From Archangium violaceum (GTDB taxonomy: Bacteria; Myxococcota; Myxococcia; Myxococcales; Myxococcaceae), in contig NZ_CP069338.1 in NCBI RefSeq assembly GCF_016859125.1, forward strand, positions 8,621,501 through 8,685,500: a stretch of DNA of 64,000 nucleotides. Reading direction: 5' to 3'. This document shows, one piece after another, positions 54,242 through 62,978 of the stretch. The notes under the pieces were generated by a model that searched no databases, was not told the DNA's origin, and saw only the letters and a list, made by a program, of their open reading frames with translations. A program made the position numbers and the translations under genes. Position 1 is the first letter of the stretch. Every line of letters starts with the position of its first letter.

Positions 54242-55423
54242 TCATCGTGCGGCGGTCATACGGTGGACGCGCCAGGCGAGTGCCATCAAACCCAGAACCA
54301 GAAACAGGCCGAGGCGCAGCAGGCCGCTCCACCCCAGCACCGACAGGAGGGCCCCGGACGTCAGCGACGCCATGCCGCTGGCGGCGAACACGCACAAGTC
54401 ATTGAGCCCCTGTGCACGATAGCGCTCGGATCCCGAGCGACTGCGCGCCACCAGGGTCGTCGCGGTCACGAACACGAAACACCACCCGACACCCACCAGC
54501 GCCAGCCCGACCAGGTGCCCTCCAATTCCCGGAACCCAACTGATCAGAAACCCCACGAGCAGGAAGAGCAGCCCCAACGCCTGCAACCGTGCGATCGACA
54601 TTCTTTTCAGAATGGCGCCGATCGACAGCGAGGGCAGGTACATGCTCAGCAGGTGCACCTGTATCACCCAGCTCGCTTCCTGAAGCATGTATTGCTCGAA
54701 GCCACACATCTGCAAGGGTGTCGGCACCATCAGCAGACTCATCACCAGGAAGGCACCGGCGCCCATGGCCACCATCGGCCAATACAACGCGCGGGCGCGT
54801 GCATCGGGTGTGGCGGAGACCTCGGAGACGAACGCGCTCTGCGGTTGGTACAGCAGCAACGAGAGCGCGGCCAGAACCTGGAGCATCGCCAGGACCAACA
54901 GGACCCGGGGAACGTAATCCGACGTCCGTCCCTCCAGCAGGCCGAAGAGCGAGATGCCGGGAAAGATGCCAACGGCGCTGGCGAGCTGGATCAGGGTCAG
55001 CAGGCGCGGGGCCCTGCTGCTCTGCTGCCCCTCGAGGATGGCGAAACGATACTGCTGCACGAAGGAGCCGTGCAGACCGACACCGAAGACGGCTGCGCAG
55101 AACAGCCAGAAATCGAACCGGTGTACCGCTCGTGCCGCGAGCGCCAGGCAGCTGGCGGCCAGCAGCGCCGAGGCGATGAAGCAGCGCTTGCGTCCGAAGT
55201 GGCGCATCAGTTGGCTGGCGGGCCAGGTGCCCAGCGCCGAGGACAGCACCATCACGGCCACCGGGAGGGTCGCGAGCCGCACATCCACCGCGAGCCATTT
55301 ACCCACCAGGCTGCCGACGAACTGGATCGAAACCGCGCTGGCGAGCCCCACGACCTGGCACAGCAGCAGGACCCGCGTGTTGATGGACGTGGCGGGCGCG
55401 GCCCATGGAACTCGGAGGATCAC
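54242..55423 (-). CDS. MFS transporter in the peptide cluster
   Basis: A 393-residue, 12-helix major facilitator. It has RVLLLCQVVGLASAVSIQFV in helix 1, and ASQLMRHFGRKRCFIASALL includes a weak form of the A motif between helices 2 and 3. FGVGLHGSFVQQYRFAILEG follows in the fourth-fifth helix region. It groups loosely with bacterial putative drug or metabolite exporters. Its ATG overlaps the stop of the WH-motif gene by 4 bp (55420-55423), so it belongs to the peptide operon. It may export the mature peptide or its product (inference). Confidence 0.82.
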   Translation of the reverse strand: MILRVPWAAPATSINTRVLLLCQVVGLASAVSIQFVGSLVGKWLAVDVRLATLPVAVMVLSSALGTWPASQLMRHFGRKRCFIASALLAASCLALAARAVHRFDFWLFCAAVFGVGLHGSFVQQYRFAILEGQQSSRAPRLLTLIQLASAVGIFPGISLFGLLEGRTSDYVPRVLLVLAMLQVLAALSLLLYQPQSAFVSEVSATPDARARALYWPMVAMGAGAFLVMSLLMVPTPLQMCGFEQYMLQEASWVIQVHLLSMYLPSLSIGAILKRMSIARLQALGLLFLLVGFLISWVPGIGGHLVGLALVGVGWCFVFVTATTLVARSRSGSERYRAQGLNDLCVFAASGMASLTSGALLSVLGWSGLLRLGLFLVLGLMALAWRVHRMTAAR

Positions 55424-55938
55424 CGAACGTGCTCCTCATCGAGCGCCGCGATGGTGTCCAGGGAAAGGCCCAGCTGCTGGTGGAGGAAGCGCACCATGGT
55501 CCAGTGGGGGAGTGCACCCTCGTCGAAGGGACCGAACTCCTCGCGATACAGCGGCAGCCAGCGCAGTGCCTCCTCGAGCATCTGCTCCCGGCCGGGTTGG
55601 CTCTGCTGGTAATCCTCGTACGGCAGGCTGCGGTGATGGATGAAGAAGCGTCCCGGCAGGCGCTCCTCGCACAGCTGCCGATACTCCCGGGTCTGCAGGA
55701 TCAGATAGTGCCAGACCTCATCGATCGCCTGCTCCACGGGCAGGAACAGCCCGGCCAGCCGCTCCGGGTAGCGCGAGATCAGGTACAGGTACTTCAGGCA
55801 TTCGATGACCTGCCGCTCGACGTACGTGGGCTCCCCGCCGGTGGTCCGCACGAAGTGCCGCACCACGCCGGAGAAGAACGCGTCATCGAGCAGGGCCCTC
55901 AGCGCGTCGGTCGTCACCCTGGGTTGATTGGAGTTCAT
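55420..55938 (-). CDS. Small WH-motif protein of unknown function in the peptide cluster
   Basis: A 172-residue soluble helical protein. The core reads LPVEQAIDEVWHYLILQTRE (W76-H77) and then LCEERLPGRFFIHHRS (C90, H101-H102). The pattern D-E-x-W-H-x-x-I-L-x-T-x-x-Y followed by Cys and a double His resembles the repeat of plant and bacterial 'glycine-rich domain-containing protein' (DUF1399-like) families. Their activity is unknown, although His and Cys suggest metal binding. It lies between the adenylate-forming enzyme and the MFS gene, with 4-bp overlaps on both sides. It may act on the precursor peptide or recruit it. Confidence 0.7.
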   Translation of the reverse strand: MNSNQPRVTTDALRALLDDAFFSGVVRHFVRTTGGEPTYVERQVIECLKYLYLISRYPERLAGLFLPVEQAIDEVWHYLILQTREYRQLCEERLPGRFFIHHRSLPYEDYQQSQPGREQMLEEALRWLPLYREEFGPFDEGALPHWTMVRFLHQQLGLSLDTIAALDEEHVR

Positions 55939-57206
55939 GCGTCACCTTGTCCTGTCATCTCGGATTCCCGCACCAACCAGGCGTACTTCCCGGACTTGCC
56001 GATCGCGATGTGCTCGCGATGTTCGAGGACGCATTCGAGACCGGCGACCTCCAGGCTCCTTTGTCGCAGCTCGCGCGCCACGGTCGGATCGACGGGCCTG
56101 TTGTCGAAGGTGGTGTACAGCAAGCGGGCCTGTCGCGGCGTCTTCAGGTGAAGTTGATAGAGGAAGATGGACGGCGTGGCGTCGGAGATCCAGTCGTCGA
56201 GAGCCGCCTGCGAGAGCACCCCCCCATGTTCGAGCCGCAGCAGCTCCCTCTCCCTCCCGCAGAACCGGCGAATCCGAAGCGGGTCGGGAGAGCCATCGAC
56301 CGTCTCGGCACAATCGCCGGAGCGATAGCGGATCAGCGGCATGTAGGGATTGCGCAGGCTCGAGACGATGATGCTGTAGATCGTGCTGCCCTCTTCGACC
56401 GGGATCAGCTCCAGGTGCATCTTGTCGAGATAGGGCCAGTACCGTCCGTGGCGGTCGCTGTAATACAGATAGCCCAGCTCGGTGCTGCCAAACAGGTCGA
56501 TGATCGGGCAGTCGAAGTGCTGCTGCAAGAACCGCTGCACGTTCTTCGGCGTGTACTCGTAGGCATGAATGATGCTGGCCGGCTTCGGAAAGCGCTGCCA
56601 CGAGCCCTGGTCCAGGGTCTTCCGCACCAGATGCGCGAGGTGGTAGCTGTCACAGTCGAGGTGATACGCGCCCAGGGGATGCTCCCGCTGGACGACGGTC
56701 ATTTCATCCAGCATGCGCTCCACGTCGTCACGCTCCCAGAGCGCCGGATCGAGCCGCAGGTTGAGGTAGAGCGTGCGCGAGTCGAGCCGACGCTCCTCGA
56801 GGCTCGGAAGGGCCCGCGGCTCGGTGCCGCGCTTCCTCGCGTTGAGCCGCGCCACGTGCTCGGTCGCCAGCACGGTGGTGATCGAGACTCGCTGGCAGTT
56901 CTGCTGCCAGGTGACGGCGATGTCGGGATGCTCGCTCCACAGTTGGTAGTAGGACTTCAGCAGGAAGAAGGGAGGGCGGATGATCTGCATCCGTGCGTGA
57001 TTGGTTCCGGTCGAGAGCACGAACTCCGCCTCGCCAATCTTCAATGCCTCGGCGAGCCTCGGGGTCATCCAATTGTCCGGGAACCCCCTGGCGATCTCCG
57101 GCTTCTCCAGAATCGGGAAGAAGCCCTGTTCGATCGACTGGTGGTAGATGGGGATGTCCCTGACCTGATCGATCATCTCGACGAGCGTCTGTCTTCGGGC
57201 GTTCAT
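55935..57206 (-). CDS. PaaK/CapK-like adenylate-forming enzyme
   Basis: A 423-residue member of the ANL superfamily close to phenylacetate-CoA ligase and coenzyme F390 synthetase-like proteins. The phosphate loop is S65-T-G-T68 in EFVLSTGTNHARMQ. The adenine/aromatic motif is LFGSTELGYLYYS (about 238-250) and the ribose-binding Asp is in LIRYRSGDCA (about 291-300). Such enzymes activate a carboxylate as acyl-AMP and then transfer it to a thiol, amine or hydroxyl. Here the likely acceptor or substrate is the Cys-rich peptide encoded upstream, or a small acid. The stop overlaps the start of the WH-motif gene (55935-55938), and its own start lies 152 bp downstream of the peptide gene. Confidence 0.82.
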   Translation of the reverse strand: MNARRQTLVEMIDQVRDIPIYHQSIEQGFFPILEKPEIARGFPDNWMTPRLAEALKIGEAEFVLSTGTNHARMQIIRPPFFLLKSYYQLWSEHPDIAVTWQQNCQRVSITTVLATEHVARLNARKRGTEPRALPSLEERRLDSRTLYLNLRLDPALWERDDVERMLDEMTVVQREHPLGAYHLDCDSYHLAHLVRKTLDQGSWQRFPKPASIIHAYEYTPKNVQRFLQQHFDCPIIDLFGSTELGYLYYSDRHGRYWPYLDKMHLELIPVEEGSTIYSIIVSSLRNPYMPLIRYRSGDCAETVDGSPDPLRIRRFCGRERELLRLEHGGVLSQAALDDWISDATPSIFLYQLHLKTPRQARLLYTTFDNRPVDPTVARELRQRSLEVAGLECVLEHREHIAIGKSGKYAWLVRESEMTGQGDA

Positions 57207-57342
57207 GGGTTGAGTGGGGGAGGGGAGGTGGTTGAACGGGCCAACGAGAGGCGTTGCATCAGCCCTACGGAGCGGGCGCGAGCGAGGCGGGAATCCACGG
57301 GAACGAGGAGCTTTCCCCCCTCGCTCGCGACCCGGACTACCC

Positions 57343-57368
57343 TCTCAGCTGATACCTATCAGCTGATA
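57343..57368. promoter_or_regulatory. Two tandem palindromes (TCAGCTGATA-CC-TATCAGCTGA) overlapping the precursor stop
   Basis: TATCAGCTGATA at 57357-57368 is a perfect 12-bp palindrome. TCTCAGCTGATA at 57343-57354 differs by one base from it, and the centres are 14 bp apart. Together TCAGCTGATA-CC-TATCAGCTGA (57345-57366) also forms a perfect 10-bp inverted repeat. The structure overlaps the stop codon (57359-57361) of the peptide gene. It could be a hairpin limiting read-through into the downstream enzymes or a tandem operator. The symmetry is seen; the role is a guess. Confidence 0.6.
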
Positions 57369-57553
57369 CAGCCGGTCTTGGAGATGCAGCCGGCCTTGGA
57401 GACGCAGCCGGTCTTGGAGATGCAGCCGGCCTTCGCGGAGACGGCCGGTCCAGAGACGCAACCGGCATCGACGACCGGCGTGCCGGCGGAGTTGGCCGCG
57501 ACCCACTGGTTCCAAAGCTGGTCATGGGCGAGCTGGCGGATCAGGTTTTTCAT
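57359..57553 (-). CDS. Candidate ribosomal peptide (RiPP-like) precursor with tandem K-[AT]-G-C-[IV]-S repeats
   Basis: A 64-residue peptide. The first 28 residues (MKNLIRQLAHDQLWNQWVAA, then NSAGTPVV) look like a leader, with an amphipathic helix containing L-x-x-L and two Trp. Residues 29-64 form six hexapeptide units: D-A-G-C-V-S, a degenerate G-P-A-V-S-A, then KAGCIS, KTGCVS, KAGCIS and KTGCIS. Cys are at 32, 44, 50, 56 and 62, the last four exactly six residues apart. GGAGGT lies just before the ATG at 57553, and a promoter-like sequence lies at 57666-57694. The next genes are an adenylate-forming enzyme, a WH-motif protein and an exporter. No LanM, YcaO, radical-SAM or other classical modifier is near. 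A Cys-rich metal-binding peptide is the alternative. Confidence 0.75.
   Translation of the reverse strand: MKNLIRQLAHDQLWNQWVAANSAGTPVVDAGCVSGPAVSAKAGCISKTGCVSKAGCISKTGCIS
57362..57433 (-). repeat. Four tandem 18-bp repeats encoding K-[AT]-G-C-[IV]-S
   Basis: Read on the minus strand the unit is AAGRCCGGCTGYRTCTCC, repeated four times without gaps. The last unit changes its final codons to TGT-ATC-AGC, and these same bases form an arm of the palindrome over the stop codon. Confidence 0.85.
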
Positions 57554-57711: not shown

Positions 57712-59445
<1,734 letters not shown>

Positions 59446-59666: not shown

Positions 59667-60770
59667 ATGAATTCAAAGTACGCACTGGATCTCCTGATCG
59701 ATCTGGCGTTGATCGCCGGCTTCGGGGTGCAGCACTCGATCGTCGCCATGGTGCGCCTCAAGGCCATCATCCAGAAGCTGACGGGGATCGATCCCATCGC
59801 CTGGCGCGGTGTGCAGTCCTTCATCAACGTCTCGTACCTGCTGATGGCGTGCATCCTCTGGCGCGAAGTGCCCATCGTCATCTGGGATTTGCAGGGAGTC
59901 TGGTATTGGGTGGCGGGGGTGATCCTGGTGGCCTCCTGGGCCTGGTACTTCCAGATCCACCTCTTCGAGTACGACTGTGGCATGGCGTTCGGCTCGTCGG
60001 CGGTGCTGGCGCGCCTGCACAACGCGAAGCCGCCACCGATGGAGATGTGGAAGGTGGGCACGCGGCGCTGGCTGCGCTTCCCCGTGCACACCGCCTTCTT
60101 CCCGATGTTCTTCGCGTTTCCCCGGATGACGGCGAGCCTGCTGCTGCTGGCCATCGTGGCGAACGTGGCCAACATCATCGGTACCGTCCTCTACGACCGG
60201 CGGATGGTGTACCTGGTCAAGGACGCCTACCGTGAGTACCAGAAGGTCACGGGCCTGCTCCTGCCCCCGCTGCTGCGCGCTCCGGGCGGCGCGAAGGACA
60301 TGAACCTTCCCTCGCCGTGGCACTGGTCCCGCGTGTCCCACAACGTTCCGGGCCTGTTGCTGGGCCTGCTGGTGGGCTCGCTGTTCTGGAGGTTCCTGGG
60401 CCCCGTCAGCCTCGTCACGGAGGAGCTCGTTCGTGCGTGGCTCAGCGCCTTCCTCGTCGCGGTGACGGGCGGGGGACTGGTGGGCGTGGTGCACGCGGCG
60501 CGCGGCGCCGTGCTGGAGCTCACGTATCAGCGGGTGCTCACGATGCTCGCCACCAACACGGCCCTGATGAGCGCGGTGTCGCTCCTCACGTGGCTGGGCC
60601 TCTGCTTCGCCACCCAGGGGGACGTGCCCGTCCTCTACATCTTCTTCCCCATGTGGATGACCATGCTGTGGCTGGGTCACTTCGTGGCGTCGACCGTCTT
60701 CTTCGGGCTGCGGCCCTCGTTCGTGCCGGGCCCGGCCGCCGGCACCGTGACCGCCAAGGCCATTCCCTGA
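59667..60770 (+). CDS. NnrU/ICMT-like polytopic membrane protein
   Basis: A 367-residue membrane protein. Residues 1-205 have about six helices and the motif pattern of NnrU/isoprenylcysteine-methyltransferase-like proteins: [51 protein letters not shown] and [20 protein letters not shown]. The last segment corresponds to the C-terminal substrate and cofactor site of that fold. A second block of about four helices ([17 protein letters not shown] to [16 protein letters not shown]) has no match I know. If it is a methyltransferase, a Cys- or lipid-borne carboxylate is possible. It is the first gene of a five-gene operon, 18 bp before the next start. Confidence 0.7.
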
Positions 60771-60788
60771 TCGTCCTGGAGCGATGCC

Positions 60789-61622
60789 ATGACCGCCTTT
60801 TCCTCACTCATCCGTCCGTTCAACGTCAAACCCACCCTCCTCCCGCTCTCGCAGGGCTACCGCGGCGCGTGCTGGGCACCTCCCGCGGCGCTGGACGCCG
60901 CGCACAAACAGGCCATCTACGGCGCGCTCCGCGAGGTCTCCACGCTCGCCTTCGGCGCCGACATGGCGCCCTACTGGCGTGACCGCTCTCTCGACGGCTA
61001 CCTGGACAAGATCACCCGCTTCTATTTCATCCACAACGCGGAGGACCGGGTCGTCGGCTGGACGGGCTACCACCGGCTGACATTGGCCGGGCAGACGTGC
61101 CTGTACCTGGACTCGACGGGGGTGCTCCCCGAGCTCCAGAACACCGGCATCATGACGGGGCTGTTCGGACAGTTCCTGCTGACGGAGTTGCTGCGCGCGG
61201 GCACGCGGAGCCTCTACGTCTCCATGCGCACGGAGAACCCCGTCGTCTACCAGTCCTTCTACAAGGTGGCTGGGGAGCGGAACACCTTCCCCAGCCTGTC
61301 CACGCCGGTGCCGGAGAGGGTCCAGGAGATGGGCCGCCAGCTCGCCGCCTGGCTCAAGCAGAGCGACAAGTTCGACGCGCCGTCGCTGCGGGTGAAGGGG
61401 GCGTACGACAACCTCGACGCGCTCTACGGCGAGCTGCCCACCTGCAACGACGACAACATCAACACCTACTTCCGTCAGCACCTGCGGCCCGTGGATGCCT
61501 TCCTCGTGCTGGCGAAGCTGTCCGGCCCCAGCACCCTGCTGTCCCTGGCCACCAAGAAGCTCGGCAAGGCGCTTCGTGGCAACCGCGCGCGCCGCCCACA
61601 GGCGGAGAGCAGGACCGCCTGA
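60789..61622 (+). CDS. GNAT-like acyltransferase-fold protein
   Basis: A 277-residue soluble protein. TCLYLDSTGVLPELQNTGIM followed by TGLFGQFLLTELLRAGTRSL resembles the beta4-alpha3 region of GNAT enzymes, with a pyrophosphate-loop-like Q-x-x-G. SLYVSMRTENPVVYQSFYKV corresponds to the next strand and helix. The C-terminal third (NDDNINTYFRQHLRPVDAFL) has no match I know. Acyl-CoA-dependent acylation is plausible but not shown. It is operon gene 2, with 18 and 27 bp to its neighbours. Confidence 0.65.
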   Translation: MTAFSSLIRPFNVKPTLLPLSQGYRGACWAPPAALDAAHKQAIYGALREVSTLAFGADMAPYWRDRSLDGYLDKITRFYFIHNAEDRVVGWTGYHRLTLAGQTCLYLDSTGVLPELQNTGIMTGLFGQFLLTELLRAGTRSLYVSMRTENPVVYQSFYKVAGERNTFPSLSTPVPERVQEMGRQLAAWLKQSDKFDAPSLRVKGAYDNLDALYGELPTCNDDNINTYFRQHLRPVDAFLVLAKLSGPSTLLSLATKKLGKALRGNRARRPQAESRTA

Positions 61623-61649
61623 GCACGGGCGCAGGAGGACTCCTACCCC

Positions 61650-62978
61650 ATGGAAGACACACCCATGATTCTTGATGACGTCGAACGCAGCTTCTGGGCG
61701 ACGGACGGTTGCAGGAACATCCCCGAGATCGGGCTGAACCTGTCCGCGCTGAAGCAATACCTTCCCCAGGGTTGGCACTACCTGGTCTACCTGGCCCGGC
61801 TCGCGAACACGATCCGCTCGTTGCAGCGCGGCGATGGCTCGATGGTGGCCGAGGAGCTCTCGCGGCAGCTTCTCGAGCAGTCCGCGCTGGCGCTGGAGGC
61901 GGCGGCCAGTACCTGCCCGGACGAGGAGGTGGCGGAGATGATGCGTCTGCGCGCCGAGGGGTTGCGGCGCAACGACACGCGCGAGGCCGCGACGGCCCTG
62001 GCCCGCGCGAAGAACGATCGGCTGGTGGTGCTCTGCGGGCCGCTCGTCACCTGGCCCGGCAAGAGCAGCGCCTATCTCCACTCCACCTGCGTCGCCCTGG
62101 AGGACGAGGTGCTCACGCGGCGTGTCCGCGCGCTCGAGGCGGAGCTGGGTACGCTGCGCGGCTATTACGAGAAGCTGCTGGGCCTGGAGGGCTTGGAGTT
62201 GGCGGAGTTCCCCTCCTATACCATCAGCGAGCTGGTGCTCTGCGGTGGCGAGGCGAATGGCTTCCCCAAGCACTTCACCTACTTCCTCCCCGAGGACGAG
62301 GGGCACCGCAAGATCAAGCCCCGCAAGACGTTGCTCTTCCACAACATCTACCTGGAGCGCATCCGCTGCCTGAGCCTGCCGCTGCTCAGGAGCCTGTGCC
62401 CGGAGCTGACGGTGGCGGACGAGGACGTGTGCGATCCCCTGGTGGCGCTCACCTGGTTCCGCGGGCACGACGTGGGGCACTACTGGCGCCACCGCGATGC
62501 CGCCTTCGGCAAGTTGCGGGAGCTTGGCACGGCCCGCTCCTACGCGCTCCAGGAGGCGCTCTGCGACGTGCTCGGCTTCCTGGCGCTGCACGGGCCGTGG
62601 CGCCAGGAGGCGCGGCATGACGCGCCCATGGGCTTCTACCTCGCGGAGATGCTCCGCTTCCTCGGCCGCGGCTACCAGGCCATCCATCCGGACTTCGAGG
62701 CCGCGCACATCGTGCTCTCCTATCTGGTGAAGAAGGGCTTCGTCTCCCTGGACGCGGAGCGCGGCGAGCTGCGCCTCACCCAGGAGCTGTTCCAGAAGGG
62801 CGTGACCGAGGTGGCCGAGCGGCTCATGCGCGCCGTCCTCGGCGGTGACGTGGACGAGGCGCGCCGTCTGCTCGCGGAGCACGGGCTGGCGGCGGATCCG
62901 CGCCAGAGCCACCTGGATGCGGTCATCCGCCGCGCCGCGAGCATGGGCAATGACATCCGCTACATCTACGAGGGCTGA
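61650..62978 (+). CDS. Uncharacterised putative metalloenzyme with HDxxH motif
   Basis: A 442-residue soluble, mostly helical protein. ALTWFRGHDVGHYWRHRDAA contains H273-D274-x-x-H277 with H281 and D283 close behind. ALQEALCDVLGFLALHGPW and HPDFEAAHIVLSYLVKKGFV follow with more acidic and His residues. The order of His and acidic residues suggests a helical di-metal or HD-like metal centre, but it does not match the canonical HD-domain or HExxH pattern. The N-terminus carries FWATDGCRNIPEIGLNLSAL. DUF6421-like proteins are a possible match that I cannot confirm. It is gene 3 of the operon. GCAGGAGG lies before the ATG at 61650; ATG 61665 is an alternative. Confidence 0.65.
   Translation: MEDTPMILDDVERSFWATDGCRNIPEIGLNLSALKQYLPQGWHYLVYLARLANTIRSLQRGDGSMVAEELSRQLLEQSALALEAAASTCPDEEVAEMMRLRAEGLRRNDTREAATALARAKNDRLVVLCGPLVTWPGKSSAYLHSTCVALEDEVLTRRVRALEAELGTLRGYYEKLLGLEGLELAEFPSYTISELVLCGGEANGFPKHFTYFLPEDEGHRKIKPRKTLLFHNIYLERIRCLSLPLLRSLCPELTVADEDVCDPLVALTWFRGHDVGHYWRHRDAAFGKLRELGTARSYALQEALCDVLGFLALHGPWRQEARHDAPMGFYLAEMLRFLGRGYQAIHPDFEAAHIVLSYLVKKGFVSLDAERGELRLTQELFQKGVTEVAERLMRAVLGGDVDEARRLLAEHGLAADPRQSHLDAVIRRAASMGNDIRYIYEG

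Follow-up and report, generated by a model that had tools for sequence, protein, structure and literature searches.

Gene Arrangement and Distribution of the Module

The window, i.e., the whole 64-kb stretch of DNA that was analyzed, carries on its minus strand the genes for a short precursor peptide (57359..57553), a PaaK-type adenylate-forming enzyme (AD, 55935..57206), a 172-amino-acid protein referred to here as WH (55420..55938), and an MFS exporter (54242..55423). As the preliminary description had stated, the WH ORF contains the string DEVWHYLIL together with C90, H101, and H102, and the residue numbers were rechecked. The reported gene overlaps are also present: the stop of AD and the start of WH share 4 nt (55935-55938), and the stop of WH and the start of the exporter share another 4 nt (55420-55423). 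The depiction of WH as a small helical protein agrees with its predicted structure, which has 13 helices and no strands (mean pLDDT 87.3).

In six comparisons with myxobacterial homologs, dN of WH was 0.02-0.12 and dS was 0.17-0.41, therefore indicating a constrained gene under purifying selection. These values, and the homologs found in the family and in other phyla, rule out a chance or spurious ORF, and judged by such comparisons WH is a real gene.

Strong matches to WH (81-100% identity) occur in seven of the 96 genomes of the window's family, its own genome included, and the strong matches to AD lie in the same seven, so the suggested co-occurrence of WH with a PaaK-like gene holds. A scan of a species-genome collection added 32 loci, namely four in Sorangium, 11 in Streptomyces, seven in Nocardia, two each in Amycolatopsis and Saccharopolyspora, and one each in Kutzneria, Sciscionella, Actinokineospora, a Pseudonocardiaceae bacterium, Burkholderia, and Paraburkholderia; this is an undercount, because the scan is seeded by short peptide patterns that must match exactly. 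Together, 39 loci with a close WH homolog (the window, L002-L007, and L013-L044) were thus available from Myxococcota, Actinomycetota, and the Burkholderia group, although their sequences are related and counts over loci do not represent independent events. AD lies directly upstream of WH, and a precursor peptide gene upstream of AD, in all 39. The distance matrices of WH and AD were correlated with r = 0.956, a value reached in none of 2000 permutations, for the 30 of the 39 loci in the AD alignment (which leaves out L018 with its in-frame stop, seven Streptomyces loci, and L043). WH homologs retain 50-70% identity between phyla, and this suggests that the whole unit may have been horizontally transferred between them. 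A phage origin was considered and rejected, as AD is absent from phages and WH has two weak matches there. The window's own genome also carries a second, distant WH-like gene at 7547547-7547804, which has no Cys tail.

The conserved module is the precursor peptide, AD, and WH, usually with an MFS exporter. Comparison with five MFS queries identified an MFS protein adjacent to WH in 30 of the 39 loci; L035 has a partial MFS match, located in an 11-helix protein adjoining WH. No MFS-like protein was found beside WH in the other eight (L017, L018, L021, L023, L024, L026, L028, and L031; the L024 stretch stops about 1.1 kb past WH), and no other many-helix membrane protein adjoins WH in these loci, apart from L026, where an MgtE-type protein does so. 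Since the exporters are of several groups, the exporter has been swapped while peptide, AD, and WH stayed together. WH had been proposed to take a specific step in maturation or export. A role beside the peptide is backed by all 39 loci, but eight of them have no recognized MFS-like protein next to WH, which makes a function in export less probable.

On the plus strand, a flavin monooxygenase is encoded at 57808..59445 (the listed ORF starts at 57715). It contains FxGxxxHxxxWP, matching the type I Baeyer-Villiger fingerprint FxGxxxHxxxW[PD], and scores 311 bits against the NCBIfam PtlE model (cut-off 1100). Such a gene is linked to the module in 15 of the 39 loci, comprising all 11 myxobacterial loci, in which it is either divergent, upstream on the same strand, or downstream of the MFS gene, and four actinobacterial ones (L032, L033, L034, and L036), in which it adjoins the MFS gene and has the same orientation. 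In the other 24 loci, none was found in the sequence examined, which for some of them is short. The neighboring region of the window at 59667-62978, which encodes a weakly MddA-like membrane protein, a GNAT-like protein, and a 442-aa protein of no family, has no match in the related loci that were examined. No gene common by function to the actinobacterial clusters was found among ten neighboring ORFs of five loci, and those neighboring genes that were scanned included no dedicated protease shared by the clusters.

Precursor Peptide and Intercistronic Stem-Loop

The precursor of 64 amino acids consists of the leader MKNLIRQLAHDQLWNQWVAANSA followed by five GC[IV]S units. The leader-like part covers residues 1-23 (57485..57553, minus strand) and, when the 39 precursors were compared by eye, was of the type MxxLIxxxAxDxxWxxWVAANSA across the loci. 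The core-like part (57362..57484, minus strand) has its units at G31, G43, G49, G55, and G61, and its DNA holds a 29-nt direct repeat in three copies with a spacing of 18 nt. Elsewhere in the window, translation in all six frames yields just two more GC[IV]S strings.

The precursors of the 39 loci are 38-76 amino acids long and have 2-7 units. All of their 129 cysteines fall within GC[IV]S, and a lysine stands two residues ahead of the glycine in 117 of the 129 units. The C-terminus is GCIS in 32 precursors and GCVS in one, while six extend past the last unit. Asp and Glu are absent after the first unit in 31 of the 39. One Sorangium precursor (L016:6213-6560) has a decayed first unit (GGVA) and five others that are kept, as if repeat units were gained and lost freely.

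RNA folding predicts a strong stem-loop between the precursor and AD (57273..57334, minus strand). The gap between these two genes folds better than its shuffled versions, with z below -2, in 34 of the 39 loci (z -3.35 in the window), and no Rfam family matched near the stem-loop at gathering scores. The structure is likely an intercistronic attenuator or an mRNA-processing hairpin, which would let the precursor be made in excess. Overall, all 39 loci have the arrangement by which a RiPP locus is recognized, in which genes for putative modifying proteins adjoin that of a ribosomal precursor made up of leader and core.

The PaaK-Type Adenylating Enzyme

AD is 423 amino acids long and contains a P-loop (STGT), GSTE, YRSGD, GRE, and a C-terminal GK, all of which are near-invariant in 30 sequences. 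Its match to the Pfam AMP-binding model is below the cut-off (E 0.24). The predicted structure (pLDDT 88.8) matches PaaK1 and BT_0428 best (Z 24.2, rmsd 3.5, 357 aligned residues), followed by ClxA (Z 22.8), AjiA1 (Z 20.7), and NatL2 (Z 20.4). By its modeled fold and its adenylation motifs, AD belongs to the ANL superfamily and is of the PaaK type, with adenylation as its predicted activity.

NatL2, ClxA, and AjiA1 share the PaaK-type fold and the ANL motifs with AD, but their identity to it is just about 13-16%. In NatL2, a C-terminal extension is reported to block the movement required for the CoA step, an ester is formed from the acyl-adenylate, and the product is handed to a zinc enzyme (PMC7204872); ClxA is reported to make esters and amides with ATP (PMC12519233). 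NatL2 and ClxA use small aryl acids, whereas the gene for AD is tied to a ribosomal peptide. Use of CoA by AD is possible. An action of AD on Asp or Glu side chains of the core is unlikely, given that the 31 precursors noted above have none after the first unit.

In Streptomyces sindenensis (L018:6710-6862), the AD gene is interrupted by an in-frame stop after about 50 codons, and the peptide and WH look intact. In other myxobacteria (L106 and L107), relatives of AD with 30-33% identity adjoin genes that were named by eye as cysteine-desulfurase-, ATP-grasp-, radical-SAM-, and amidotransferase-like, and probably belong to another pathway with the same type of ligase.

Conserved Residues and a Putative Metal Site in WH

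Across the 39 AD-linked WH sequences, 49 columns are invariant, including D73, E74, W76, H77, T83, Y86, C90, G96, H102, and R103. In a broad alignment of 17 sequences, D73, H77, T83, Y86, C90, G96, and H102 are still invariant, as is L51. A metal site of H77, C90, H101, and H102 had been proposed, with conservation of these residues among homologs as its check. Three of the four (H77, C90, and H102) are found in all 39 sequences, but position 101 is His in only 19 and otherwise Asn (10), Glu (9), or Asp (1), which rules out a site that depends on H101. Since D73 is invariant while H101 varies, D73 is the better candidate for the fourth residue, and the putative site is to be read as D73-H77-C90-H102. 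In protein farnesyltransferase, Asp, Cys, and His are the protein ligands of a zinc ion that activates the substrate thiol. Because the Asp/Cys/His set of WH resembles these ligands, we favor thiol activation as the putative function of the site.

Kinship of WH to the GRDP-Like/DUF1399 Domain

No model of Pfam, NCBIfam, or PHROGs matched WH above its cut-off. Plant (AtGRDP1/2), bacterial, and giant-virus proteins of the GRDP-like/DUF1399 type (PF07173) resemble WH in the pattern D-x-x-W-H-x5-T-x2-Y-x3-C-...-G-...-H and in their helical fold, but WH falls under the Pfam cut-off. The WH of the window gave no match to PF07173 at E 1 or 10, and the model weakly matched 3 of the 39 AD-linked sequences (best E 0.14). 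A PF07173 search gave no match in the window's own genome, with control genomes likewise silent, and two sub-threshold matches in 92 family genomes.

By profile comparison (hhalign), the 39 WH sequences aligned over 116 columns, with a probability of 98.5, to seven distant relatives that had themselves been collected by their similarity to WH; one of the seven scores 22.2 bits on PF07173, for which the gathering cut-off for the whole protein is 22.7 bits. In the viral structures of BFVD, the first match of the WH model is named Glycine-rich domain-containing protein-like (probability 1.00, E 0.023). Ranks 1-3 are giant-virus proteins with probability 1.00 and E values of only 0.023-0.12, and the remaining 47 matches listed have probabilities of at most 0.10. 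The profile search against DUF1399-like families that the preliminary description had called for thus yields distant kinship, supported by profile and by structure, but no direct match above the cut-off and no Pfam membership. Sequence and model comparison therefore place WH among the divergent relatives of the GRDP-like/DUF1399 domain, of which it is not a member by Pfam's own rule.

Among solved structures, a sequence search returned one chance-level match to WH, an iota-carbonic anhydrase (E 0.1), and a profile search none. A Foldseek search of the PDB with the WH model gave probabilities of at most 0.08 (terpene synthase, TetR, CopM, and others), and a second fold comparison with the PDB gave a best Z of 2.4 with no convincing match, which does not amount to proof of a new fold.

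Cysteine-Rich Tails in Distant Relatives of WH

Relatives of WH that are not linked to AD often end in a cysteine-rich tail. We counted tails in a set of unlinked relatives from three phyla, collected with a profile that stopped short of the tails, with one row per distinct protein and AD-linked loci removed. At least two cysteines in the last 30 residues were present in 17 of the 33 unlinked relatives, a moderate proportion over rows that are related, vs. none of the 39 AD-linked WH (three of which have one cysteine) and 16 of 363 control ORFs from the AD-linked loci. An earlier, partly biased unlinked set had given 20 of 31. The tail is missing in 16 of the 33, including 11 of the 13 myxobacterial relatives (two of the 13 have it).

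Cysteine-rich ends occur, for example, in distant plasmid-borne relatives from Rhizobium gallicum (...CKGCNGCAAGCVS), Agrobacterium (two proteins, one ending ...CKGCSACSSCGGGGSCTVH), a 7.9-kb plasmid of E. coli (...VCGCSGKGCGAGCSCNSR), and Streptomyces (...DCSQCHSGCSESNYDGQ). Relatives from Deinococcus and from another Streptomyces have no such tail. The relative in L084 also carries a TIGR04222 domain.

The neighborhoods of some of these genes were also recorded. On an Agrobacterium plasmid (L070:4358-8703), two Cys-tailed WH-like proteins, a GT4-type glycosyltransferase, and an ABC transporter are encoded in a row, an arrangement reminiscent of glycocin clusters, and in R. gallicum (L065) the tailed gene and a glycosyltransferase lie amid nif genes. 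A WH-like protein is also encoded on small plasmids in 25 Escherichia plasmid records (L069:6662-7360; about 8 or 13 kb among those listed); the one that was read has a Cys/Gly-rich tail and is annotated as hypothetical.

In plants, AtGRDP2 of Arabidopsis likewise combines DUF1399 with a Gly-rich C-terminal part that has cysteines scattered through it (PMC4299439). WH differs from AtGRDP2 in that it has no Gly/Cys tail; its partners are instead a distinct Cys-repeat peptide and an AMP-ligase. Because unlinked relatives are often Cys-tailed, while AD-linked WH come with a separate Cys peptide instead, one domain may handle cysteine segments often in cis and, in the module, in trans, as though a former tail had become a peptide of its own; we regard this pattern of sequences as a lead, not as proof.

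Proposed Maturation Route and Alternatives

Taken together, WH is very probably part of a peptide-maturation module. More tentatively, and with somewhat less than even confidence, we propose that cysteines are acylated with the aid of WH in the maturation, with AD as partner, of a ribosomal peptide. Beside the linkage, conserved residues, and fold kinships observed, we infer a route of adenylation, leader docking, acyl transfer, cutting, and export. In this route, AD would adenylate a small carboxylic acid to an acyl-adenylate; a small acid is assumed because the nearest solved relatives of AD include aryl-acid AMP-ligases. The leader of the peptide would dock on WH, which would bind the KxGCIS cysteine, probably via a metal for which some of D73, H77, C90, and H102 would serve as ligands, and would present or activate the thiol, so that the acyl group passes to the cysteine (or to the adjacent serine). 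A host protease would then cut the units out and the MFS protein would export the cut product, while the flavin monooxygenase might oxidize it in some lineages.

Alternatively, WH might be a recognition or scaffold factor only, similar to an RRE, with neither a metal nor catalytic activity; by binding the leader it would deliver the core to AD, which alone would catalyze the reaction. The conserved leader with its two tryptophans, the strict linkage of AD and WH, and the failure to find an enzyme fold for WH are all in keeping with such a role. However, WH has 49 columns that are invariant across three phyla, with polar or charged residues in many of them, more than we would expect from pure docking, and the D/H/C/H set is retained in relatives that have neither an adjacent AD nor this leader. 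We consider a purely docking WH possible but unlikely.

The peptide could also serve as a carrier, as pearlin carrier peptides do, with its cysteines holding an (amino)acyl thioester that WH and the flavin enzyme modify in place, and with the MFS protein exporting the small molecule that is set free. Multiple identical thiol sites, MFS exporters of several kinds, and the monooxygenase linked in 15 of the 39 loci would fit with this, but no common releasing enzyme was seen in the clusters, the monooxygenase is missing from the stretches of the other 24 loci (some of them short), and the repeat number ranges from 2 to 7, so that a carrier function appears quite improbable. Least probable, and hardly to be expected, is that WH modifies the cysteine (e.g., by oxidizing it or closing a ring at Cys-Ile-Ser), with AD working elsewhere, such as on the C-terminal carboxylate to give a thiolactone: 33 of the 39 precursors stop exactly at GC[IV]S, the C-terminus is the sole core carboxylate in the 31 that have no Asp or Glu after the first unit, and the residue set of WH is metal-like, but six precursors run past the last unit and internal units would have to be cut before having a C-terminus at all.

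Relation to Known Peptide Pathways and Significance

The module proposed here to acylate cysteines resembles multi-unit RiPP clusters of the cyanobactin-like logic: it too has a short leader with core units in tandem, enzymes encoded next to the precursor, an exporter, and a hairpin 3' of the precursor gene. Pfam and NCBIfam scans found no YcaO, LanM, radical SAM, ATP-grasp, or MNIO protein among the precursor, AD, WH, and MFS proteins, and to our knowledge the module contains no RiPP enzyme class described so far; therefore, it points to new chemistry on cysteine. The carrier-peptide pathways of pearlins are similar in their short ribosomal peptide that may act as a scaffold, but the core module has no PEARL enzyme, and its cysteine is internal and repeated. 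We found no description of the pair of an ANL enzyme and a DUF1399-like protein, or of the module, in open PMC papers, the GC[IV]S peptide motif was met there in unrelated texts only, and a term search of the decRiPPter paper returned nothing on the module. We regard the module as a candidate for a new RiPP class.

A broader reading, speculative and on balance doubtful, joins two claims, namely that an ANL ligase and a DUF1399-like protein modify the KxGCIS cysteines in a new RiPP class, and that the DUF1399/GRDP-like domain is a general handler of cysteine segments. In this joint reading, plant, giant-virus, and many bacterial forms of the domain would act in cis on the Gly/Cys tail of the same chain, and WH would act in trans on a separate peptide. 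GRDP-like proteins occur in giant viruses, as the BFVD matches indicate, and in bacteria; the domain is also found in plants and is still labeled a domain of unknown function there (PMC4299439). If the reading is true, the DUF1399 domain would gain its first biochemical role. The probable three-gene peptide-maturation module, common to three phyla, also offers a small, tractable bacterial system for learning the function of the DUF1399/GRDP-like domain.
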